This document shows, one piece after another, positions 6,833-31,251 of a stretch of DNA of 32,011 nucleotides. Position numbers and translations under genes: made by a program. Every line of letters begins with the position of its first letter. Position 1 is the first letter of the stretch. Source of the stretch: a virus; the IMG/VR virus record IMGVR_UViG_3300027771_000059, positions 1 through 32,011 of that record, one strand, 5' to 3'. The notes under the pieces were generated by a model. That model saw only the letters and a program-made list of their open reading frames with translations. It made no database searches and had not been told where the DNA came from.

Positions 6833-7168
6833 TTATCTTTCTTCTATAACCTCTAAAACTAAGTTGTAATTTTCTTCTAAAGTTAAATGATCCCCAAAAT
6901 AAACGTCAGTCATTCCGTAATTAGAACTAGCATTATGATCGCTATATCTAACCGTAATCGTTTCAGAAAAATCATAATCTCCATTTTCATCTAGAAATTC
7001 AATACGGTAATCAATGTATGTAGAAATACTTTTAGAAGAATAATCCAACCTATCCAAATTATAGCCTTTAGAAATCATTAACGTTGAAAAATCAATAATA
7101 CTAACATAAATATCATTATATTCTTTTTTTATTCCTTTTATTTCTAATTTTAAATCCTGAATATTCAT
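6833..7168 (-). CDS. Accessory hypothetical protein (111 aa) opposite to the late operons
   Basis: Function unknown. The product is acidic and soluble-looking, with RIEFLDENGDYDFSETITVRY in the middle (read in pieces RIEFLDENG and FSETITVRY) and a Glu-rich C-terminus. I place the start at 7168 (MNIQDLKLEI) rather than at the upstream ATG at 7228, because the stretch between them holds a good Bacteroidota promoter (TTG at 7226-7228 and TATCTTTA at 7199-7206), and because AAAATATTATG is the start context used across this window. It lies alone on the minus strand between tail and head operons and has its own promoter and terminator, the arrangement of a phage moron gene. Confidence 0.7.
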   Translation of the reverse strand: MNIQDLKLEIKGIKKEYNDIYVSIIDFSTLMISKGYNLDRLDYSSKSISTYIDYRIEFLDENGDYDFSETITVRYSDHNASSNYGMTDVYFGDHLTLEENYNLVLEVIEER

Positions 7169-7198
7169 AATATTTTGTTTTAGTGTTTGTTTCTGGTG

Positions 7199-7228
7199 TA
7201 AAGATACAACCAATAATAACATTATCAA
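7199..7228 (-). promoter_or_regulatory. Host-type promoter for the 111-aa accessory gene
   Basis: On the minus strand a TTG (7226-7228) is followed after exactly 19 bases by TATCTTTA (7199-7206), one mismatch from the Bacteroidota -7 consensus TAnnTTTG. Transcription would begin near 7192, leaving a leader of about 24 nt before the ATG at 7168. Confidence 0.65.
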
Positions 7229-7414: not shown

Positions 7415-7543
7415 TTAGATAAAATTTTTATTATTTAAGACATTGTAAATACTTTTTATTAAGTCGTATCTTTCACTAACTGTATAATGACCTTTATAAA
7501 AATCTAAATCTATTTCCTTTAAAGTTTCAATTAATTCTTTCAT
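7415..7543 (-). CDS. Small accessory protein (42 aa)
   Basis: A minus-strand ORF of 42 residues starting MKELIETLKEIDLDFYKGHY and ending NNKNFI. It is mostly helical and charged; no domain is recognised. Support comes from context: the ATG has the local ATATATTATG start style, a TAnnTTTG promoter box (TACATTTG) lies 19-26 bp upstream, and an intrinsic terminator lies downstream. It forms, with the 111-residue gene, a two-gene accessory patch inserted between the tail and head operons. Confidence 0.6.
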   Translation of the reverse strand: MKELIETLKEIDLDFYKGHYTVSERYDLIKSIYNVLNNKNFI

Positions 7544-7561: not shown

Positions 7562-7594
7562 CAAATGTACAATATTAATACGTAACAATAACAA
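7562..7594 (-). promoter_or_regulatory. Host-type promoter for the 42-aa gene
   Basis: The minus strand reads TACATTTG at 7562-7569, a perfect match to TAnnTTTG. Two TTG candidates for the -33 box lie 16 bp (7586-7588) and 22 bp (7592-7594) upstream. It overlaps the plus-strand late element at 7582-7621, so the two directions may compete. Confidence 0.55.
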
Positions 7595-7621
7595 TAAAAT
7601 TTAGTTATAATAATAATGAAG
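7582..7621 (+). promoter_or_regulatory. Candidate late promoter element, copy 1
   Basis: This 40-bp stretch ends at the first codons of the protease gene and matches 12149-12188 at 32 of 40 positions without gaps. Shared blocks are GTAACAA at the start, CAA at positions 11-13, TTTAGTTATA in the middle and TAATGAAG at the start codon. No host-type TAnnTTTG box is present on this strand. Because both copies stand before the first gene of a late operon, I read it as the site used by the phage sigma factor encoded at 30778, or as a shared translation leader. Confidence 0.55.
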
Positions 7622-8665
7622 CGATTTAGAGCAAAATTTAATCCAAAAAGGAAGGGGGTGTACGCAGTCTCTTTAGTTGATGAGCCTGCAATGGAGGGTG
7701 ATTTTATACAGTTTTCTAAAAAAGAAGATGTTGTAGAATTTGCCGTTATAGACGAGGGTAGTCACAGGATTATGGGGCTTATCTTAGAGCCTAATAAAAA
7801 CATATTAAGATATGACGCTGTTAATAAAGAACCTTACGAGGTTTTCTTTACAGAACAAGACGTTAAAGATGTTGCTTATAATTTCCAAAAACAAGGGCAT
7901 CAAAACAATTCAACAAAACAACATGACGGCAGACTTATAAAAGACGTGTCTTTCGTTGAAACTTGGATAGTTGAAAACCCTAAAGTGGATAAGTCTACAA
8001 ATTACGGATTTGAATACCCAAAAGGATCATGGGTTGGTGTAATGGAGGTTAAAAATAAAGAAATTGTAAACGATATTAAGTTAGGTAGATACAAAGGGTT
8101 TAGCATTGACGCTATAATGGAGTTTGAACAAGTTAATTTAAAAAAGGTAAATATGAGTGAAATTAAAGAGGATAGTATTTTAGACGCTATTAAAAAAGGC
8201 TTCGCGCAATTGGCAGAAAATCCATTTGCAAAGAAGAAAGATGAAAAGGATATGACTCCCGAAGAAATCGAAAAGGCTAAAAAATTAGCTGAAAAGTTGA
8301 AAGCCGAAAAGGACGGTAAGAAAAAAGAAGACGAAGAAGAAAAAGTTAAAATGGCTAAAATTGAGGCTGATAAATTAGCGCTAGAGGCTGTCAAAGAAGC
8401 TGCTAAGATTGAGTTTAATTCTGAGGACTTCATTAAGTCTATGATTTCAGAGCTTAAAACTATTTTAGAGCCTACAGAAGTAGCACTTGCAAAATTAGAA
8501 AAAGATGTTTTAGAGTTTAAAGCGGAAAACGAAACTTTAAAGTCTGAGAATTTAGAATTAAGCAAATTACCAGCTACTAAGTCTATTGGTAGAGTTCACT
8601 TAAATAAAAACACAAAAGAAACTTCTTACCAGAGATTTAGAAGACATAACAAACAATTTAATTAA
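7616..8665 (+). CDS. Prohead protease, XkdF-like (peptidase S78_2), with scaffold-like C-terminus
   Basis: A 349-residue protein. Residues 1-175 match the XkdF-like phage serine protease pattern: RYDAVNKEPYEVFF, then a histidine in KQHDGR (H103), VETWIVENPKVDKS with E115, YPKGSWVG, and a serine in YKGFSID (S163). H103 and S163 are the likely catalytic pair. Residues about 180-330 are a Lys/Glu-rich coiled coil like a capsid scaffold, so one gene probably provides both the maturation protease and the scaffold that it digests. It lies 9 bp before the major capsid gene, the usual place. The start is the ATG in TAATAATGAAG; no earlier in-frame ATG is present. Confidence 0.85.
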   Translation: MKRFRAKFNPKRKGVYAVSLVDEPAMEGDFIQFSKKEDVVEFAVIDEGSHRIMGLILEPNKNILRYDAVNKEPYEVFFTEQDVKDVAYNFQKQGHQNNSTKQHDGRLIKDVSFVETWIVENPKVDKSTNYGFEYPKGSWVGVMEVKNKEIVNDIKLGRYKGFSIDAIMEFEQVNLKKVNMSEIKEDSILDAIKKGFAQLAENPFAKKKDEKDMTPEEIEKAKKLAEKLKAEKDGKKKEDEEEKVKMAKIEADKLALEAVKEAAKIEFNSEDFIKSMISELKTILEPTEVALAKLEKDVLEFKAENETLKSENLELSKLPATKSIGRVHLNKNTKETSYQRFRRHNKQFN

Positions 8666-9746: not shown

Positions 9747-10259
9747 ATGGCAGATATAGCAGCAGGAAGGTTAAGAACAGATGACAATTTACAAGGGGGT
9801 GTTGAGGAAATTTATTTCTTTAATTACGTAGCAGGCGCATTCACCGTTACGGCAAATGTAGCAACAGCGATAGACTCAGGCTTAACAGCAGTCTACAAGT
9901 ACGAAATTCAAGGAGACGGTAACACGTTTACAGAATCTAACGTAGTAGATAAAAAGACAGGAACAAGTGTAAACACGCAGACATTAGTGGCGCAATTAAA
10001 ACAAGTTAACTCTGCAACAAACGTAGAATTAGATAAGTTATTGCAAGGTAGAAACTCAGCAGTCTACAAAGATTCTAACGATCAGTACCGTTGGATTGCT
10101 TTAAAAGGGTTTAATGTTACATCGACAGGTGAATTAGTAACAGGTGGAGCAAAAGCAGATTTTAACGGTTATAACGTGACACTAGTAGCAGAGCAAAAGG
10201 GATATTCTCCAAGTTTGGACGCTTCGACAGTGACCGCATTACTAGCATTAGTAGCATAA
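9747..10259 (+). CDS. Virion structural protein (170 aa), paralogue of the protein at 14783
   Basis: An Ala/Thr/Val-rich protein without membrane or signal segments. It shares a frame of motifs with the 177-residue protein at 14783-15316: an N-terminal QGG(V/S)E followed by an aromatic strand, a central Lys-Asp-(Ser/Asn) Asp/Gly-Gln/Asn stretch, and a C-terminal TGG..ADFNGYN. The shared ends suggest one fold duplicated. Size, position after the capsid gene and beta-rich composition fit a capsid decoration, head-completion or tail-tube protein; I cannot choose. It is expressed only through the upstream attenuator, and a strong bidirectional terminator follows. Confidence 0.65.
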   Translation: MADIAAGRLRTDDNLQGGVEEIYFFNYVAGAFTVTANVATAIDSGLTAVYKYEIQGDGNTFTESNVVDKKTGTSVNTQTLVAQLKQVNSATNVELDKLLQGRNSAVYKDSNDQYRWIALKGFNVTSTGELVTGGAKADFNGYNVTLVAEQKGYSPSLDASTVTALLALVA

Positions 10260-10311: not shown

Positions 10312-10359
10312 TAACTTAATATAAAAAGCATTAAAACGGTTTTTATACCTTTGTTAGGC
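10312..10359 (-). repeat. attC-like hairpin 1 (after the 72-aa gene)
   Basis: TAAC (10312-10315) pairs with GTTA (10353-10356); TATAAAAA (10320-10327) pairs with TTTTTATA (10340-10347). Minus strand: TAAC, 4 nt, GTATAA ... TTATAT, 3 nt, GTTA. The outer box extends to GTTAGGC (10353-10359), a full match to the attC R-box consensus. Very similar to the site at 20127-20171. Confidence 0.6.
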
Positions 10360-10891: not shown

Positions 10892-10939
10892 TAACAACGT
10901 ATAAAGTGCATTGAAACGCACCTTATACAATGCGTTAGC
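10892..10939 (-). repeat. attC-like hairpin 2 (after the adenine methyltransferase)
   Basis: TAAC (10892-10895) with GTTA (10934-10937); GTATAA (10899-10904) with TTATAC (10923-10928); GTGC (10906-10909) with GCAC (10918-10921), separated by a single A/C mismatch. Spacers are 3 and 5 nt. The stop codon of the methyltransferase gene is the TAA of the TAAC box, as is common where cassette genes end in their attC site. Confidence 0.65.
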
Positions 10940-11663
10940 CACAATACACAAATAGCTTCTCGGTACTTAATTTATTGCCTCCGCTTTTTCCGTTTGCACT
11001 TAAGCTACTTTTAGTTTCTTTTTCCCAAACACATTTAAAGTCTTCAGGTGCTTTATACTCACTTACAAATACTTTATGTCCTTGCTTTGTTTTTAATCTT
11101 ACCCATTCCCAAAACTCAATATGGTTAAACTCTTCCCTATCGTTATAACTTGTTGTTCCTTTGTATGGTGGGTCACAATAAATTAAACTATTGTCGGGTA
11201 TTTCTAAGTCATTATATTTTAAGTTGCTAAACTCAACACCGTTTAACTTTGGTACTTGTTTCAATATATTTCTCAACGCTTCTGCTTGGTAGTTTCTTTT
11301 TACTCCTGTTTTAGTATTAACCACACCAGCGCAGCCACCGTTAAAATAATCACCACTAAAAGAGCATCCAAAACCTACCCAACCTAAGTAATCGCTTTTA
11401 TAATCACTTTTGTTATCTCTTATTTTTTTGTAATCATCTTTAGTTATAAAAAAGTCAGGCTTAAACCCCTTGTAAACAAAACTTTTCCACATCTCTATTA
11501 ATTCAAAATGCAAATCGTTTGCAAGTCTTTTACCCGTCACTTTATCAATCATATTCATACCACCTGCAAAAGGTTCAATGTACCATTGCTCAGGTGTTCT
11601 ATCTTTTAATATTATAGGTAACAATTCTTTTGCAAACCTATTTTTACTTCCTATGTATTTCAT
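10935..11663 (-). CDS. DNA adenine methyltransferase, D12 class (Dam-like), in a cassette
   Basis: A 242-residue enzyme expected to methylate adenine N6 using SAM. The N-terminal KYIGSKNR corresponds to the FxGxK start of the D12 family, motif I is EPFAGGMNM (residues 30-38), and catalytic motif IV is CDPPYKGTTSY with DPPY at 164-167, giving alpha-class order. Length is normal for Dam-type enzymes. No restriction partner is encoded, so protection against host restriction or epigenetic signalling is likely; specificity (GATC or other) cannot be read. It runs against the phage late genes, ends within an attC-like site, follows another such site, and has no promoter of its own: all signs of a cassette acquired separately from the phage backbone. 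Confidence 0.92.
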   Translation of the reverse strand: MKYIGSKNRFAKELLPIILKDRTPEQWYIEPFAGGMNMIDKVTGKRLANDLHFELIEMWKSFVYKGFKPDFFITKDDYKKIRDNKSDYKSDYLGWVGFGCSFSGDYFNGGCAGVVNTKTGVKRNYQAEALRNILKQVPKLNGVEFSNLKYNDLEIPDNSLIYCDPPYKGTTSYNDREEFNHIEFWEWVRLKTKQGHKVFVSEYKAPEDFKCVWEKETKSSLSANGKSGGNKLSTEKLFVYCG

Positions 11664-11754: not shown

Positions 11755-11991
11755 TTATCCCATCCAATGTTCGCCAAAAGTATGTCCATCATAAGTTGAA
11801 GGTTCACTATATTTTTGGTTACTTGACTTAAAGTCATCCCATTCTCGCCAACCCTTACCGTATTTTAAATTTATTTCTTGTCTTGCGGTTTCTACAGCAA
11901 CATTTTCTTTTTTTTTAGAAGTACATACTTTTAACTTTTGCTTAATTAAAATAGCGAGTTCTTTTCTTATTGCTTTTGTGCTTTTTTCCAT
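11755..11991 (-). CDS. Cassette gene, small basic protein (78 aa)
   Basis: The product starts with a Lys-rich helix (MEKSTKAIRKELAILIKQKL) and ends in a Trp- and Gly-containing tail (KYGKGWREWDDFKSSNQKYS... EHWMG). No known domain is recognised. The ATG follows closely after the GTTAGAATTAG end of an attC-like site, and the TAA lies a few bases before the next site, so the gene fills one cassette almost exactly. It would be the first gene read from the TAnnTTTG promoter at 12131-12161. Confidence 0.6.
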   Translation of the reverse strand: MEKSTKAIRKELAILIKQKLKVCTSKKKENVAVETARQEINLKYGKGWREWDDFKSSNQKYSEPSTYDGHTFGEHWMG

Positions 11992-12130: not shown

Positions 12131-12161
12131 CAAAGATAAAATAAATAAGTAACAAATACAA
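12131..12161 (-). promoter_or_regulatory. Host-type promoter for the cassette array
   Basis: Minus strand TATCTTTG (12131-12138) matches TAnnTTTG exactly. A TTTTG whose TTG is 12159-12161 lies 20 bp upstream. It points into the cassette array in the way the Pc promoter of an integron does, and overlaps the plus-strand late element. Confidence 0.65.
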
Positions 12162-12188
12162 AATTTTTTAGTTATATTATTAATGAAG
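12149..12188 (+). promoter_or_regulatory. Candidate late promoter element, copy 2
   Basis: Matches 7582-7621 at 32 of 40 positions without gaps (shared blocks GTAACAA, CAA, TTTAGTTATA, TAATGAAG). It precedes the portal operon. As at the first copy, a minus-strand TAnnTTTG box lies 10-12 bp to its left. Confidence 0.55.
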
Positions 12189-12488
12189 ATATTGTTACCG
12201 TCGGCAACTAGCCACACTATACCAATGAAGCCACGTATAAACGTTACAGACGTCTTAAGTGTGGTTATTAAAAACGAGGCTAAAGGCACGGTTACAACAG
12301 TTGTACCTACCTATACTTTATCTCACGGTATAATGTTACTAACTTTTACATTGGTAGGTTTAGAGGGTGAAACATTTACGGTCAAATTACTACAAGCAAC
12401 CGAAATAGTGTATAGGTGTAAGTTATTCTTTACTGCGCAACCTGCACAAAATTATAAAATTACAAAAAATAAATATATTTATGCCTAA
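12183..12488 (+). CDS. Small virion-associated protein (101 aa)
   Basis: A beta-rich 101-residue protein whose second half reads as a small domain (LVGLEGETFTVKLL, EIVYRCKLFFT) and ends KITKNKYIYA. I associate this C-terminus with small structural genes of Bacteroidota phages, without a named family. It starts at the ATG within the late element and overlaps the portal gene by 8 bp, so it is the first gene of the portal operon and is translated with it. A head-completion role is a guess from position. Confidence 0.6.
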   Translation: MKILLPSATSHTIPMKPRINVTDVLSVVIKNEAKGTVTTVVPTYTLSHGIMLLTFTLVGLEGETFTVKLLQATEIVYRCKLFFTAQPAQNYKITKNKYIYA

Positions 12489-14289
12489 GAACAATACATC
12501 TGATGTAAGGTACGTAAATTTTAATAAGTATACGCACTTACCTATTTTAGAGAACACGCCTAGAAACTGGGTAATGAATGGAAGAGATAACGGTAATTAT
12601 AAATACGTTATAGATAGATATAATGGAAGCACAACAAATAAGGCTATTAACAACGCCTATATTGATTTAGCTTATGGAAGGGGTTTAGGTATTCACGACC
12701 AAGAAGACGACAGCGCAGAGTTAAAAGGGTTCTTAGAAATAATGTCTAAAAATAATTTGCGAAATGTTTTGGCAGACAATCAAATTTTAGGGGCTTTTTG
12801 TGTTCAGATACACAGGCAAAACGGCAGTAAAAACAAACTTGCTAAAATTGAACACATTACAAAATCAAATGTAATACCCAGTGTAAAAGATGATGAAGGA
12901 CTTATAAAATCTTACTGGTATTCAGAAGATTGGACTAAGAAAGGGCAAGCAAAATATAAACCTGTTGAATATCCTGCGTTTGGATATGCTGAAGATTTCG
13001 ATTATGAACTACCTGAAATTTACGTCGGAAAACCTTACCAAATTGGTCAAGAATATTTTGAAAAGCCTGATTATGATGCAGCTTTACAGTACGCACAAAT
13101 TGAAGAAGAACTAAGCAACTATTACATATCTCACATTTTAAACGGATTATCTTTTGGATCAATTGTAAACATTCCTAATTCTAAATGGTGGACGGATGCT
13201 GAGAAGGACGAGTTTATTAAAAGTTCTGAAAAGAGCCTCACGGGGAGTTCAAACGCTGGGCAAAAAGCCTATAATTTTATGGGAACAGACTCCCAACCAA
13301 CGACCATTACAAATGTAGAAAACAGCACCGCACACAAACAATGGGACTTCCTAGTTAAAGAGGCGTCAAATAAAATTCTTTCGGCTCACAAATGTATGTC
13401 ACCCGCACTAGTTGGTTTAAGTTCTTCTACTGGTTTTTCCTCGGTTGCTGATGAAATGGATGTTATGGAACAACAATTAATGAAACGGATTATTGCGCCT
13501 AAACAAGATTTTGTTTTGAATGGAATTTCCGAAATTTTAGAGTTCTTTGGGATGTCATTTGATTACTACTTTAGACCACTAACCGAAATCGAAGGAGAAA
13601 AAGAGGAAGAAGAAAAGGTTAATAAAGGGTATGTAGAAGAGGGTGTAAAAGATGATTTAGAATTATCAAAATACGGTGCTTGCAACTGCCAAAAAAAAAA
13701 GTCTGATTTAGACGAATTTATATCATTAGGCGAGGACGAAGATTTAGAAAACTTTAATCTAGTTGATGAAATTGAAGTCGATTACGACGAAGAAAATAAA
13801 ATAGAATTAGCAAGTACAGGAGTTGCAAGACCTAATAGTAAGAGTAAACAAGATGGTGAGGATTTTGTAGTTCGTTATAAGTATGTAGGTAAGTCATCCG
13901 CTAAAATGAACCCTAAAACGGATAGAAATTTTTGTATCAAAATGATGGATGCAAAAAAAATATACAGAAAAGAGGATATTTTACAATTAGAAAATAAAAA
14001 AGTAAACGACACTTACACAAATAAAGATGGTAGGATTGTTGGATGGGGACCAAAAGGATCTGCGACCTATGATATTTGGCTGTATAAAGGCGGTGGAAAT
14101 TGTCACCACAAATGGAATAGAGTAATTTATTTGAAAAAAGGTAAAAACGTTGACGTTAACAGCCCATTAGCAGAACTTATAAGTACGTCAGCAGCAAGAA
14201 GAAAGGGTTATAAATTAAAAACAAATGACACTAAAGTAAGTATAGAGCCTAGAAATATGACAAATAAAGGATTTTTAACAGCAAGATAA
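12481..14289 (+). CDS. Portal protein with extra C-terminal Cys/His domain
   Basis: A 602-residue protein. Residues 1-390 look like a phage portal: an N-terminal wing region, NNLRNVLADNQILGAFCVQI, then a helical stem and clip (SAHKCMSPALVGLSSSTGFSS, followed by DEMDVMEQQLMKRIIAPKQ). Next comes an acidic linker with CNCQKKK, and from about 450 a distinct basic domain containing RNFCIKMMDAKKIYRKEDI, VGWGPKGSATYDIWLYKGGG and NCHHKW (540-545). That last domain recurs in Bacteroidota phage portals as I recall it, and its place corresponds to the MuF-type minor head domain in others; the Cys-His-His group could bind metal. The portal is the gateway for DNA packaging and the head-tail joint. The stop overlaps the next ATG. 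Confidence 0.75.
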   Translation: MPKNNTSDVRYVNFNKYTHLPILENTPRNWVMNGRDNGNYKYVIDRYNGSTTNKAINNAYIDLAYGRGLGIHDQEDDSAELKGFLEIMSKNNLRNVLADNQILGAFCVQIHRQNGSKNKLAKIEHITKSNVIPSVKDDEGLIKSYWYSEDWTKKGQAKYKPVEYPAFGYAEDFDYELPEIYVGKPYQIGQEYFEKPDYDAALQYAQIEEELSNYYISHILNGLSFGSIVNIPNSKWWTDAEKDEFIKSSEKSLTGSSNAGQKAYNFMGTDSQPTTITNVENSTAHKQWDFLVKEASNKILSAHKCMSPALVGLSSSTGFSSVADEMDVMEQQLMKRIIAPKQDFVLNGISEILEFFGMSFDYYFRPLTEIEGEKEEEEKVNKGYVEEGVKDDLELSKYGACNCQKKKSDLDEFISLGEDEDLENFNLVDEIEVDYDEENKIELASTGVARPNSKSKQDGEDFVVRYKYVGKSSAKMNPKTDRNFCIKMMDAKKIYRKEDILQLENKKVNDTYTNKDGRIVGWGPKGSATYDIWLYKGGGNCHHKWNRVIYLKKGKNVDVNSPLAELISTSAARRKGYKLKTNDTKVSIEPRNMTNKGFLTAR

Positions 14290-14783
14290 TGGAAACAGTA
14301 CTATTCGCAAGTCCGCAAGAAATAACCATCTCTACTATAGTAGGGGGAAATGTCGATGTTGACAAATACAATATGCATATTTCAGACACTCAGGTATTCA
14401 CAATTAAACCACTACTAGGTAGTTTACTTTATGATAAAATTGTGGCTGATGTAGTTGCAGATACGTTAACAGGTCTTTATTTGGAGCTGGTAAACAACTA
14501 TGTAAAGCCTATAACAAAATATAAATCTGTTTCGACGTTTGTGGCTCTAAATTCTTACTCACTTAATAACGCTGGCTTATTTAAGAACACACCTAAAGAC
14601 GTACAGGTAGTATCTGACCGAGCAACCGAAAACATTTCAGACCGTTATAGCTCAATGGCGCAGATGTATGTAACAAACTTTTATGCATGGATATCTCTAA
14701 ATAAACTAGAAGAATATAAAGAAGATCAAAACGGAATAAAACCCGTAACGATTAACATTAACAACGGTTGGAGATATAGCTAA
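14289..14783 (+). CDS. Head-tail connector protein, DUF6712-like
   Basis: The 164-residue protein has the layout of DUF6712: an N-terminal segment with one helix set (NVDVDKYNMHISDTQ, then KPLLGSLLYDKI), a long central helix (LYLELVNNYVKPITKYKS), a small-residue loop, and a final helix (MYVTNFYAWISLNKLEEY). Such proteins sit between portal and tail as adaptors. Position between portal and a structural paralogue supports this. ATG overlaps the portal stop by one base, and the stop overlaps the next start by one base. No odd composition. Confidence 0.7.
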   Translation: METVLFASPQEITISTIVGGNVDVDKYNMHISDTQVFTIKPLLGSLLYDKIVADVVADTLTGLYLELVNNYVKPITKYKSVSTFVALNSYSLNNAGLFKNTPKDVQVVSDRATENISDRYSSMAQMYVTNFYAWISLNKLEEYKEDQNGIKPVTININNGWRYS

Positions 14784-15316
14784 TGGATTATTCAAGAGCA
14801 ATACAAAACGACAACAGCCAAGGAGGTTCTGAAGTGCTTTATATTTTCCCATTTGTGGAATATAGTAGTTCGCAGATAACCGTGATTAATAACTTTTTAA
14901 CTGTATTTCCATACAATATTATCTATAATTTAGAAGCGTTTAAAATAAATTTTGATGAAGAGGTATCTGAATTTTACGAGCAAAAATGTACTTTTCAGGT
15001 TAAAAAGATTTTAGCAATTGATAAATTTAAGGAATACGCTCAGCAAGATTATAGAATTATTTTAAAAGACAACAACGGCAATTTAAGAATGTTAGGATTA
15101 CATACAGGTGTTCAAGGTAAATTTACAAAATCAACAGGCGGTAATTTGGCAGATTTTAACGGATATAATTTTAATTATGACACCAAAGAAGAAGATACAG
15201 CACCTTTTTTAACAGATTTAAGTTTGTTTAATATAATGCCTTTGAATGGGCTAAATCTACAAGATGGTAACGGTAATTTAATACAAGATAATAACGGTAA
15301 TTTAATAGTAAATTAA
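14783..15316 (+). CDS. Virion structural protein (177 aa), paralogue of the protein at 9747
   Basis: Residues 1-150 follow the 170-residue protein at 9747: SQGGSEVLYIF at the start, then a strand-rich middle (YEQKCTFQVKKILAIDKF), RIILKDNNGNLRMLGLHTG, and TGGNLADFNGYNF near the end. The last 25 residues carry a short tandem repeat of the form LQDGNGNLI, IQDNNGNLI. The protein has no membrane segment. Two divergent members of one structural family in separate operons suggests two rings or a tube and a decoration protein of the same fold. The start codon overlaps the stop of the connector gene. Confidence 0.65.
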   Translation: MDYSRAIQNDNSQGGSEVLYIFPFVEYSSSQITVINNFLTVFPYNIIYNLEAFKINFDEEVSEFYEQKCTFQVKKILAIDKFKEYAQQDYRIILKDNNGNLRMLGLHTGVQGKFTKSTGGNLADFNGYNFNYDTKEEDTAPFLTDLSLFNIMPLNGLNLQDGNGNLIQDNNGNLIVN

Positions 15317-20129: not shown

Positions 20130-20173
20130 CTTTGTATAAAAAACATTAAAACGTTCTTTATACCTTTGTTAGC
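20127..20173 (-). repeat. attC-like hairpin 4 (second locus)
   Basis: TAAC (20127-20130) with GTTA (20168-20171); GTATAAA (20134-20140) with TTTATAC (20157-20163); AAC (20142-20144) with GTT (20053-type partner at 20153-20155). Spacers are 3 and 4 nt, total 45 bp. Close in sequence to site 1. The TAA stop of the 120-residue gene is the TAA of its TAAC box. Confidence 0.6.
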
Positions 20174-25248: not shown

Positions 25249-25632
25249 ATGAGGAAATTAAATAAAGAACAAGTAGACAATGTAAGTGGTGGTATTTTAA
25301 CAGGTTTTGAGTTCCTCCACTATTTAGAAGAATGTGTACGTTTAGGAGTTTTTGAACCAGCAGCGTTAAAAAGAGTAAAGGCGACAATTAAACATCTACA
25401 ATTTATTGAAGAACACTTTTACAACCAAGTGGAAGAAATGGACGAGGAAAATATTAGTGATAAATTAATGTCGAATAAATTAGATTATGTAAAATGGATG
25501 TTAGACGAATTCCCTCACAGCCAATACGCAAAATTACAAGAGGTAAACATTGCTTTTAGTTTGGACGCTCGTAGGCTTTGCGGAATCTCTGACAAAATAC
25601 ACTTAGAAAATAACGCAATTAAAATATTATGA
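25249..25632 (+). CDS. Hypothetical early protein (127 aa)
   Basis: A soluble helical protein: an N-terminal KLNKEQVDNVSGGILTG, a middle CVRLGVFEPAALKRVKATI and a charged helix (FIEEHFYNQVEEMDEE). The first 16 residues resemble a double-glycine leader of peptide bacteriocins by chance or descent, but the remaining 110 residues are not a bacteriocin core. It starts 1 bp after the DnaA-like gene and overlaps the methyltransferase by 4 bp, so it is an ordinary member of the early operon. Function unknown. Confidence 0.55.
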   Translation: MRKLNKEQVDNVSGGILTGFEFLHYLEECVRLGVFEPAALKRVKATIKHLQFIEEHFYNQVEEMDEENISDKLMSNKLDYVKWMLDEFPHSQYAKLQEVNIAFSLDARRLCGISDKIHLENNAIKIL

Positions 25633-26270
25633 TAAACATTACAAACGAAGACAATATGCTTTTAATGGCAAGATATCCAGATAATCATTTCGATTTAGCA
25701 ATAGTTGACCCACCTTATGGGATTGATATTTCTAAAACAGGAAATGTAGGTGGTAATAATTTAGGTAAGACAAAGGATTACGGGAAAAAAGAATGGGATT
25801 CTGTTATACCTACCGCAGGTTATTTTAAAGAACTAAAAAGAGTAAGTAAAAATCAAATTATTTTTGGTGGAAACTATATGATTGAGCATTTAGAAAACAC
25901 GCCTTGTTTTTTGATATGGGATAAAAATAATAGTGGCAATTTTGCAGATGCAGAATTGGCTTGGACTTCTTTTCAAACTGCTACAAGGATTTTTAAATCT
26001 ACTTGGAATGGAATGTTACAACACGATATGAAGAACAAAGAAATAAGAATACATCCAACGCAAAAACCTGTAAGATTGTATGAATGGATTTTAGATAATT
26101 ATACAGAAAAAGGGTTTAAAGTTTTAGATACTCATTTAGGAAGTGGTAGTATTGCTTTAGCGTGCCATAATAGAGAGTTTGATTTAACCGCTTGCGAATT
26201 AGATAAAGATTACTATATTGCAGCGATGAAAAGATTAAAAATACACCAACAACAATTAACAATGTTTTAA
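25629..26270 (+). CDS. DNA adenine methyltransferase, beta class (DPPY)
   Basis: A 213-residue amino-methyltransferase. DPPY is at residues 27-30, HPTQKP at 142-147, and the SAM-binding motif I VLDTHLGSGS from 165. The IV-before-I order is beta class. It is short and has no separate recognition domain. It shares the plan, but not close sequence, with the tail-module enzyme at 1200, so the two probably have different targets or timing (early here, late there). It abuts the ninG gene (stop then ATG). Role: modify phage DNA against host restriction, or influence replication. Confidence 0.9.
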   Translation: MINITNEDNMLLMARYPDNHFDLAIVDPPYGIDISKTGNVGGNNLGKTKDYGKKEWDSVIPTAGYFKELKRVSKNQIIFGGNYMIEHLENTPCFLIWDKNNSGNFADAELAWTSFQTATRIFKSTWNGMLQHDMKNKEIRIHPTQKPVRLYEWILDNYTEKGFKVLDTHLGSGSIALACHNREFDLTACELDKDYYIAAMKRLKIHQQQLTMF

Positions 26271-28661: not shown

Positions 28662-29735
28662 ATGAAAAATACAAAACATAAATTTCCGTATAAATGGACT
28701 TTAAAAGATGCAAATTTTACAAAAGATAAAGGGACTGTATTTAGTTGCTTTGCTTGTGGAGGTGGTTCTACTATGGGTTATAAGTTAGCAGGGTTTGACG
28801 TGATAGGATGCAATGAGATAGACCCTAAAATGATGGACGCTTACAGGACTAACCATAAACCAAAGTTATCTTATTTAGAACCAATACAAACTTTTAAACT
28901 AAGAAAAGATTTACCAAAAGAACTTTATAATTTAGATGTTTTGGATGGTTCGCCCCCTTGCAGCAGTTTCTCAATGTCTGGGAATAGAGAAAAAGATTGG
29001 GGAAAAGAAAAAAAGTTTAGAGAAGGACAAGCAGAACAAGTTTTAGATAATCTATTTTTTGATTTTATAGATTTAGCAAAAGAATTACAACCTAAAGTAG
29101 TTGTTGCTGAAAACGTAAAAGGATTACTACAAGGTGATGCAAAAGAATATGTAAGAAATATTTATATAGATTTTGATAAGGCTGGTTATTACTGCCAACA
29201 CTTTCTTTTGAATGCTTCTAAAATGGGTGTACCTCAAAGACGTGAAAGGGTGTTTTTTGTTTGTTTACGTAAAGATTTAGCAAAAGATTTTTTATATTTT
29301 AAAGATATGTTTACTGAATTACCAAAAATTGAAATGGGATTTAATGAGCCATTAATAACATATAAAGAAATAAGACAATTAAAAGGAAATGAAAGTGCTG
29401 AGGGGCTTTCTCCAATGATTAAAAAATTTTGGTTGTTATGTAAAGCTGGTGATGCTTTTAGTAGTATACACCCTAAAGGAAGTTATTTTAATGAAATAAA
29501 AACACATCCAGACAAAGTATTACCTACTATTAGAGCAAATGGATTACCTTATGATTATGAGTTTGAAAGAACTTTGTATAATGATGAATGTAAAAAAGCA
29601 GGGAGTTACCCCTCAGATTATAATTTTGTGTCTAACAAGCCGGTTTATTTAATAGGAATGAGTGTACCACCTGTAATGACTGCACAGGTAGCAAGCAGAA
29701 TATATGAACAATGGTTAGTTAATATAAAAGTATAA
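28662..29735 (+). CDS. dcm: DNA cytosine-C5 methyltransferase
   Basis: A 357-residue Dcm-type enzyme that makes 5-methylcytosine. Motif I is FSCFACGGGSTMGY (from 27), IV is GSPPCSSFSMSG with catalytic C100, VI is ENV (150-152) and VIII is QRRERVFF (192-199). The variable region with the target-recognition domain spans about 205-310, and the C-terminal GMSVPPVMTAQVAS helix closes the fold. The length is normal. It has its own TAnnTTTG box. No nuclease gene accompanies it. It could protect phage DNA or modify host genes; its target, which could include CCGG, cannot be read from sequence. The symbol marks family type only. Confidence 0.92.
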   Translation: MKNTKHKFPYKWTLKDANFTKDKGTVFSCFACGGGSTMGYKLAGFDVIGCNEIDPKMMDAYRTNHKPKLSYLEPIQTFKLRKDLPKELYNLDVLDGSPPCSSFSMSGNREKDWGKEKKFREGQAEQVLDNLFFDFIDLAKELQPKVVVAENVKGLLQGDAKEYVRNIYIDFDKAGYYCQHFLLNASKMGVPQRRERVFFVCLRKDLAKDFLYFKDMFTELPKIEMGFNEPLITYKEIRQLKGNESAEGLSPMIKKFWLLCKAGDAFSSIHPKGSYFNEIKTHPDKVLPTIRANGLPYDYEFERTLYNDECKKAGSYPSDYNFVSNKPVYLIGMSVPPVMTAQVASRIYEQWLVNIKV

Positions 29736-30749: not shown

Positions 30750-30757
30750 TACATTTG
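30750..30757 (+). promoter_or_regulatory. -7 box before the sigma factor gene
   Basis: TACATTTG, an exact TAnnTTTG, 20 bp before the ATG. Host polymerase would therefore make the phage sigma factor. No good TTG at -33. Confidence 0.55.
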
Positions 30758-30777: not shown

Positions 30778-31251
30778 ATGTTAGAAGAACTAGCTAAAAA
30801 AGATAAACTTTGGCGTGAAATTGCTTTCATGATCACAAATAATCATGATGATGCTGATGAGTTGGTGCAAGAGATGTATATGAGAATCCCAAAGTATAAG
30901 AAGCACATCGAAGATATAACTACTGGATTTATAAAGGTGGTTTTAGTTAACATGTTTATCGACTCAAAGAAGCAACCAAACTATAAAAAAGAACATTGCG
31001 AAGACTTTGAGCAGATCGGAAGGTATGCTAAATTAGTAACAGAACAGCCGAAAAGCGGTTATAGTGATAGGGAGTTAACTATAATGAAAAGAATTGATAA
31101 TTTACCTTACAAAGACAAGAACCTCTTAGAATTAAGTTACGCCCACTCTTTACGAGATATTGAAAAGATAACTGGTATTAATTATGTTAAAGTAAGTAGA
31201 GATTTAGATTGGATCAAAATAAGAATTTTAGGTAGCAAACAAAAAAGATAA
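30778..31251 (+). CDS. Sigma-70-family (ECF-like) RNA polymerase sigma factor
   Basis: 157 residues, the size of minimal ECF-like factors. Region 2 is seen as DDADELVQEMYMRIPKY (about 24-40, matching the A.DlvQe.f.r. pattern), and region 4 as NLLELSYAHSLRDIEKI then TGINYVKVSRDLDWIKIRI, a helix-turn-helix for the promoter. It stands between the early operon and the small terminase gene and has a host-type promoter, so I infer that it turns on late genes. The 40-bp element shared at 7582 and 12149 is the best candidate target. Overlaps the next ORF by one base. Confidence 0.75.
   Translation: MLEELAKKDKLWREIAFMITNNHDDADELVQEMYMRIPKYKKHIEDITTGFIKVVLVNMFIDSKKQPNYKKEHCEDFEQIGRYAKLVTEQPKSGYSDRELTIMKRIDNLPYKDKNLLELSYAHSLRDIEKITGINYVKVSRDLDWIKIRILGSKQKR

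Follow-up and report, generated by a model that had tools for sequence, protein, structure and literature searches.

A bipartite element before two late operons of a Bacteroidota phage and the phage sigma factor that probably reads it

The subject of this analysis is a pair of similar elements in a 32,011-nucleotide stretch of viral DNA (IMG/VR record IMGVR_UViG_3300027771_000059, positions 1 to 32,011; hereafter the window), each lying directly upstream of a plus-strand operon of virion genes. Downstream of copy 1 is the gene of a prohead protease, followed by a probable capsid gene, and copy 2 precedes a short conserved gene that overlaps the portal gene. Near the end of the window lies the gene of a small protein resembling sigma factors of the extracytoplasmic function (ECF) type, which we propose as the reader of both elements. 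The features on which the argument turns are these (aa, amino acids).

7582..7609, plus strand: putative late promoter copy 1 (GTAACAA at 7582-7588, 14-bp spacer, AGTTATA at 7603-7609; protease ATG at 7616)
7616..8665, plus strand: XkdF-like prohead protease (Pfam PF14550), first gene of a late operon
12149..12176, plus strand: putative late promoter copy 2 (GTAACAA at 12149-12155, 14-bp spacer, AGTTATA at 12170-12176; ATG of the 101-aa gene at 12183)
12183..12488, plus strand: conserved 101-aa protein, kept in relatives, first gene of a late operon, directly before the portal gene
12481..14289, plus strand: portal protein (phrog_33693, 6.5e-95)
30750..30757, plus strand: host-type -7 box TACATTTG upstream of the sigma gene, proposed to serve early expression
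30778..31251, plus strand: ECF-type sigma factor of the phage, 157 aa, regions 2 and 4 (NCBIfam, PHROG, Foldseek), proposed reader of the late promoters

As the original prediction had stated, the two 40-mers (7582-7621 and 12149-12188), which lie 4.5 kb apart and end just inside a plus-strand start codon, are identical at 32/40 positions. What they share is a bipartite element, GTAACAA-N14-AGTTATA, with 6 nt between the second box and the ATG. The two boxes are the same in both copies (14/14), the spacer agrees at 8/14 positions and the flanks at 24/60 and 18/60. Identity that is confined to the boxes, with spacer and flanks dissimilar, speaks for a shared binding motif and is not evidence of a duplicated segment. 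The pair stands out clearly within the window, where the next best match to copy 1 reaches 26/40, and when the 40-mers anchored at the start codons of 35 plus-strand genes are compared in every pairing, it comes out on top (32; next 26). A weight matrix derived solely from the sites of relatives, from which the window's own sites were excluded, places the two copies at ranks 1 and 2 of the whole window with 27.6 and 26.6 bits (next 10.7); the best score in 25 simulated windows was 19.7. No TAnnTTTG box occurs in the element, and a host promoter of that type for the plus strand was rejected for this reason. Likewise rejected was a palindromic operator with GTAAC...GTTAT as inverted half-sites, a symmetry that breaks in relatives with GTTTTA or CGTTTATA.

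The element is widely kept. An orthologue of the protease or of the 101-aa gene directly follows it in the relatives L002, L003, L004, L005, L006, L007, L016 and many others, and four of these (L003-L006) have the same late genes in the same order, with the minus-strand cargo seen in the window mostly or wholly missing. Since the element is retained before the same genes in relatives devoid of cargo, it is assigned to the late genes. A strict motif, applied to a wider set, was found at 16/25 protease starts and 17/25 starts of the 101-aa gene, as against 0/32 capsid, 0/43 next-gene, 1/30 portal and 2/31 following-gene starts, that is, at 33/50 starts of late operons vs 4/153 starts of internal late genes (Fisher p 4e-21). 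A motif placed before late operons and absent elsewhere is the mark of dedicated promoters in late sigma systems of the phiEco32/7-11 type, and the distribution found here is of that kind. The region on the terminase side lies beyond the ends of the window, whose last genes (sigma, 31251, 31483) just precede the terminase in relatives. A further site was found in relatives, between the terminase gene, which it directly follows, and the tail genes. The original prediction had suggested looking for such additional copies outside the window, and would have been undermined by the lack of the element before the late operons of relatives, where it is present. A scan for relatives with the 101-aa protein alone returned nothing. 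Cellulophaga phage phi46:1, which has a related capsid gene, was rejected as a relative for having neither the sigma factor nor the motif, and makes a weak negative control. Before the 101-aa gene of L010 (at 7663), L013, L014, L034 and L035, the loop of a terminator-like hairpin of the preceding gene contains the -35 box, and the T-run forms the promoter spacer (e.g. AAACCCTTTTTGAAACATAAAAGGGTTTTTTTCGTTATA), so that terminator and late promoter look fused.

The proposed reader has the traits of an ECF (group 4) sigma factor. In such proteins region 2 binds the core enzyme and recognises the -10 box, and the helix-turn-helix of region 4 contacts the -35 box. The window protein carries an ADDLVQE-type motif in region 2 (A-D-E-L-V-Q-E at 26-32), with A26 invariant and V30/Q31 nearly so among 11 sequences, and in region 4 four helices (97-107, 111-122, 125-132 and 136-151) at a predicted local distance difference test score (pLDDT) of about 90. 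At 157 aa, with a short disordered linker (69-92), it has the size of sigma factors without regions 1 and 3 (about 150-200 aa). It matches the NCBIfam ECF models NF058625 (3.7e-10) and TIGR02937 (7e-7), over an extent that reaches residue 144, as well as a PHROG of phage sigma factors, and its AlphaFold model, of two helical domains separated by the disordered linker, finds ECF sigma factors as top Foldseek matches. It is best described as a divergent ECF-type sigma factor that stands outside the named ECF groups. A homologue, annotated as sigma-70 region 2 (PF04542), is encoded four genes before the terminase in a cultured phage, Nonlabens phage P12024S (Inhavirus), as gp33; the structure was modelled without the P12024S row.

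Homologues occur in 11/25 related records, the remainder being mostly short fragments, and the phage sigma factor is present in nearly all of the longer records that can be expected to include the end of the early region. A scan for relatives with the window sigma alone found nothing, but a search with the sigma alignment succeeded and recovered relatives at 394 viral loci; in a scan of bacterial genomes only two loci, in metagenome-assembled genomes, were found. Inside the sigma gene itself, in the part encoding the linker, the window has a late-promoter-like GTAACA-N16-GTTATA (31036-31063), which recurs in L090 (3536) and L094 (1425) and, as a GTTACA version, in L095 (472) and L074 (1486), all from the window's clade; it is absent from L049 and L093. 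Redrawn codons for the same protein rarely match it so well (P 0.003 to 0.09 each). The motif could drive late transcription of the terminase side, or it may be there through conservation of the protein alone.

An out-of-sample set connects sigma factor and promoter. It comprises the best 80 of the 394 loci, picked by sigma similarity alone, from which one already-seen phage was left out (79 loci). In these, the motif is found in 32/35 unique regions upstream of the gene that follows the terminase, as compared with a mean of 3.4 and a maximum of 9 in shuffles, and the -10 GTTW of the 32 motif-bearing regions begins 11 nt before the ATG in 26, 12 nt in 4 and 13 nt in 2. Proteases of the same set have the motif in 11/13 cases, control genes in 1/43, 3/34 and 0/11. 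The three contigs with the sigma factor closest to that of the window (L090-L092, 55% identity) show the exact window-type GTAACA-N16-GTTATA. Moreover, the promoter diverges together with the sigma factor. At sites gathered by eye, the -10 block is more alike between different late genes within a genome (identity 0.765) than between genomes at the same gene (0.644), and permuted genomes give 0.626, the observed value being reached in 0/2000 trials. In partial Mantel tests on 31 non-redundant phages, the promoter tracks the sigma factor when the adjacent gene is controlled for (r 0.33, p 0.0003) and does not track the adjacent gene when the sigma factor is (0.06, p 0.13), a covariation carried by the -10 block (0.44).

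From the element, its position and its conservation, the homology of the sigma factor, and the co-occurrence and covariation of the two, all computed directly, we infer that both copies are very probably late promoters of a Bacteroidota (flavophage-like) phage, read by the phage's ECF-type sigma factor on the host core polymerase. The original prediction had seen in the element a late promoter for another form of polymerase, which the comparison with the relatives' late operons supports, and left that form unnamed; the candidate is now the product of 30778-31251. In the proposed sequence of events, (i) the sigma factor would be made early, from the host-type -7 box ahead of its gene, a box that precedes the sigma gene in several phages, (ii) this small protein would bind the host core RNA polymerase through its regions 2 and 4, (iii) the holoenzyme would recognise GTAACAA as -35 and AGTTATA as -10 box across the fixed 14-bp spacer and start the head, portal and tail operons, and (iv) as the -10 box lies 11-13 nt before the ATG in nearly all cases, the transcription start would fall on the start codon or a few bases from it, and each late operon would have its opening gene translated from an mRNA with no leader or almost none. 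In phages 7-11 and phiEco32, transcription starts 6-9 bp from the promoter element (PMC8948821), which, applied here, would put the start at the A of the ATG or no more than a few bases away. The near-invariant distance to the ATG fits a leaderless start, because a leader of free length would allow variation, and the late mRNAs are probably leaderless.

Several points weigh against this interpretation. The motif pattern was drawn up after the first relatives had been seen. The window sigma factor scores under the NCBIfam curated cut-offs (29.0 vs 42.9 bits for TIGR02937, which three of its relatives exceed, and 39.8 vs 130 for NF058625), and its structure model is moderate (pLDDT 75, predicted template modelling score 0.40). 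The -35 block alone does not track the sigma factor (partial r -0.12), and partial Mantel tests may overstate significance. Finally, in Flavobacterium johnsoniae 87% of predicted transcripts have leaders of >10 nt, so that leaderless mRNA is not the norm (PMC6847099).

On the other side of each element lie minus-strand accessory genes with host-type boxes of their own, as follows (ORF, open reading frame).

6833..7228, minus strand: ORF to the left of copy 1, actual start uncertain, without a family match
7415..7543, minus strand: small ORF of 42 aa (MKELIETL...), left of copy 1
7562..7569, minus strand: host-type -7 box TACATTTG (CAAATGTA on the plus strand), for the small ORF 7543-7415 (consensus from PMC6847099)
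10935..11663, minus strand: cargo, D12-class adenine DNA methyltransferase, left of copy 2
11755..11991, minus strand: cargo, 78-aa ORF with no assigned function, left of copy 2
12131..12138, minus strand: host-type -7 box TATCTTTG (CAAAGATA on the plus strand; TAnnTTTG), upstream of the cargo operon 11991-10935

The boxes lie 12 bp (copy 1) and 10 bp (copy 2) left of the element, within the predicted 10-12 bp; the -7 boxes are present in the window and the -33 boxes are weak. Since TAnnTTTG is common on the window's minus strand (26, about 0.8 per kb), each box taken alone is weak evidence. Among the sites compared, a host -7 box is found near the late -35 box at 14/19 sites with a minus-strand left neighbour vs 10/88 with a plus-strand one (p 1e-7), and this dependence on the neighbour indicates that the host promoter belongs to the cargo and arrives with it. 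The overlap is literal at P12024S genes 5412 and 23961, where the late -35 AAACAA and a minus-strand TATATTTG both fall within AAAACAAATATA. Accessory genes inserted left of late promoters would thus bring their own host-type promoter, the footprint of which would overlap the late -35 region, and as the footprints must overlap, the host and phage forms of polymerase should exclude each other, making occupancy of the site mutually exclusive. Here the original prediction fared well in part: accessory genes (small ORFs and the D12 methyltransferase) do lie to the left and the virion operons of protease and portal to the right, and expression of cargo by host polymerase from overlapping DNA agrees with boxes that go with cargo on the minus strand and that overlap the footprint of the late promoter. 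Its divergent module, supposedly duplicated as a whole, did not hold, the copies sharing the two boxes only and the host box varying with the neighbour.

Further observations concern the accessory and virion genes. A near-identical TTTATACCTTTGTTAG lies on the plus strand at 10340-10356 and 20155-20171, with variants (TATACATTGTTAG) before the minus-strand genes 11663 and 11991, and these are probably copies of a host-type promoter spread with cargo. Four separate DNA methyltransferase genes are found in this one small phage genome, at 1200-1940 (N4/N6), 10935-11663 (D12), 25629-26270 (N4/N6, partial) and 28662-29735 (C5). The genes at 9747-10259 and 14783-15316, either side of the portal gene, belong to the same family (phrog_19091) and go back to an old duplication of what is probably a virion gene.

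How do other explanations compare with a late promoter read by the phage's own sigma factor? An element that ends at a start codon, in a phylum that favours an A-rich upstream context (PMC6847099), might be a translation-initiation signal, the A/T-rich upstream region used by Bacteroidota instead of a Shine-Dalgarno sequence, common to two highly expressed genes. That is very unlikely and largely refuted by the controls, as the element is lacking before internal late genes such as those of the major capsid and portal proteins, the translation of which makes the same demands, and the -35 box keeps a fixed spacing, about 30 nt upstream, in a sequence specific to each genome. Equally slim are the chances that one segment with host and late promoter was copied to two places. 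Two similar copies 4.5 kb apart, each with a minus-strand box at nearly the same distance, would fit such a duplication, but it was rejected because identity is restricted to the boxes and the flanks are near background; besides, orthologous sites without cargo usually lack the minus-strand box, which lies at other distances in P12024S and L016.

A rival of a different sort, improbable but less so than these, accepts the late promoter and assigns it to another reader, either an alternative ECF sigma factor of the host or the host primary sigma factor with a phage activator. It gains from the lack of covariation of the -35 half with the phage sigma factor, the binding of which to the element is predicted. 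It would have to account for the phage sigma factor in nearly all the longer records, for loci picked by sigma factor alone that carry the element, for a promoter divergence that follows that of the sigma factor beyond that of the neighbouring gene, and for an element without TAnnTTTG. Recognition by the phage sigma factor remains our favoured explanation. A broader proposal, the odds of which we put somewhat below even, is that a large, nearly all uncultured group of Bacteroidota phages may have (i) its own fast-diverging ECF-type late sigma factor, (ii) leaderless late operon mRNAs and (iii) late promoters that act as docking sites for cargo with interlocking host-type promoters, cargo being switched off when the late sigma factor arrives.

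The arrangement recurs in dozens of uncultured relatives and in one phage that has been cultured. It would provide (i) a concrete late-gene switch for widespread Bacteroidota phages known mostly from metagenomes, with promoters predictable genome by genome, (ii) dozens of natural sigma-promoter pairs that diverged together, useful for understanding how sigma factors change specificity, (iii) a prediction of leaderless late mRNAs in a phylum without Shine-Dalgarno signals and (iv) a suggestion of where accessory genes insert and how they come to be expressed. These predictions can be tested in P12024S, the cultured Nonlabens phage. Its gene order is that of the window and relatives, and it has six elements that end in CGTTA(A/C)TA just before the ATGs at 179, 3031, 5412, 23961, 25201 and 26802, the -10 box of its type being CGTTAATA vs AGTTATA in the window type. 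For P12024S and P12024L (Inhavirus), the annotation notes a sigma domain only, and late promoters are described in none of the papers found; for the phage group as a whole, a literature search lacking most subscription journals returned no paper on late promoters read by a phage sigma factor.

As a principle, a phage sigma factor for late genes is already known from phiEco32 and 7-11. A tblastn search of the window sigma against a phage collection gave no match, and hence no close homology to gp36 or gp47 of these phages. The Bacteroidota primary promoter (TTTG / TAnnTTTG; PMC6847099) has a -7 element that fits both the boxes on the minus strand and the one preceding the sigma gene, whereas the late element has no TAnnTTTG. 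In phiEco32, gp36 is likewise a phage sigma factor for middle and late genes, and in its relative SU10 the homologue is annotated as ECF-type and a host-type promoter lies ahead of the sigma gene (PMC4281155, PMC8948821). However, phiEco32 promoters consist of a single element, tAATGTAtA, without a -35 box, and the flavophage element has both boxes. Similar in layout are the late promoters read by sigma factor gp47 of phage 7-11, a phiEco32-like Salmonella phage (PMC8948821), the layout here being GTAACA-(16)-GTTATA. Phage 7-11 belongs to an unrelated phage group with hosts of another phylum and its -10 sequence differs, and the flavophage system is a prediction from sequence. What would set the window phage apart from 7-11 is a start codon placed at the expected transcription start, together with host-type promoters of the cargo that overlap the late promoter.
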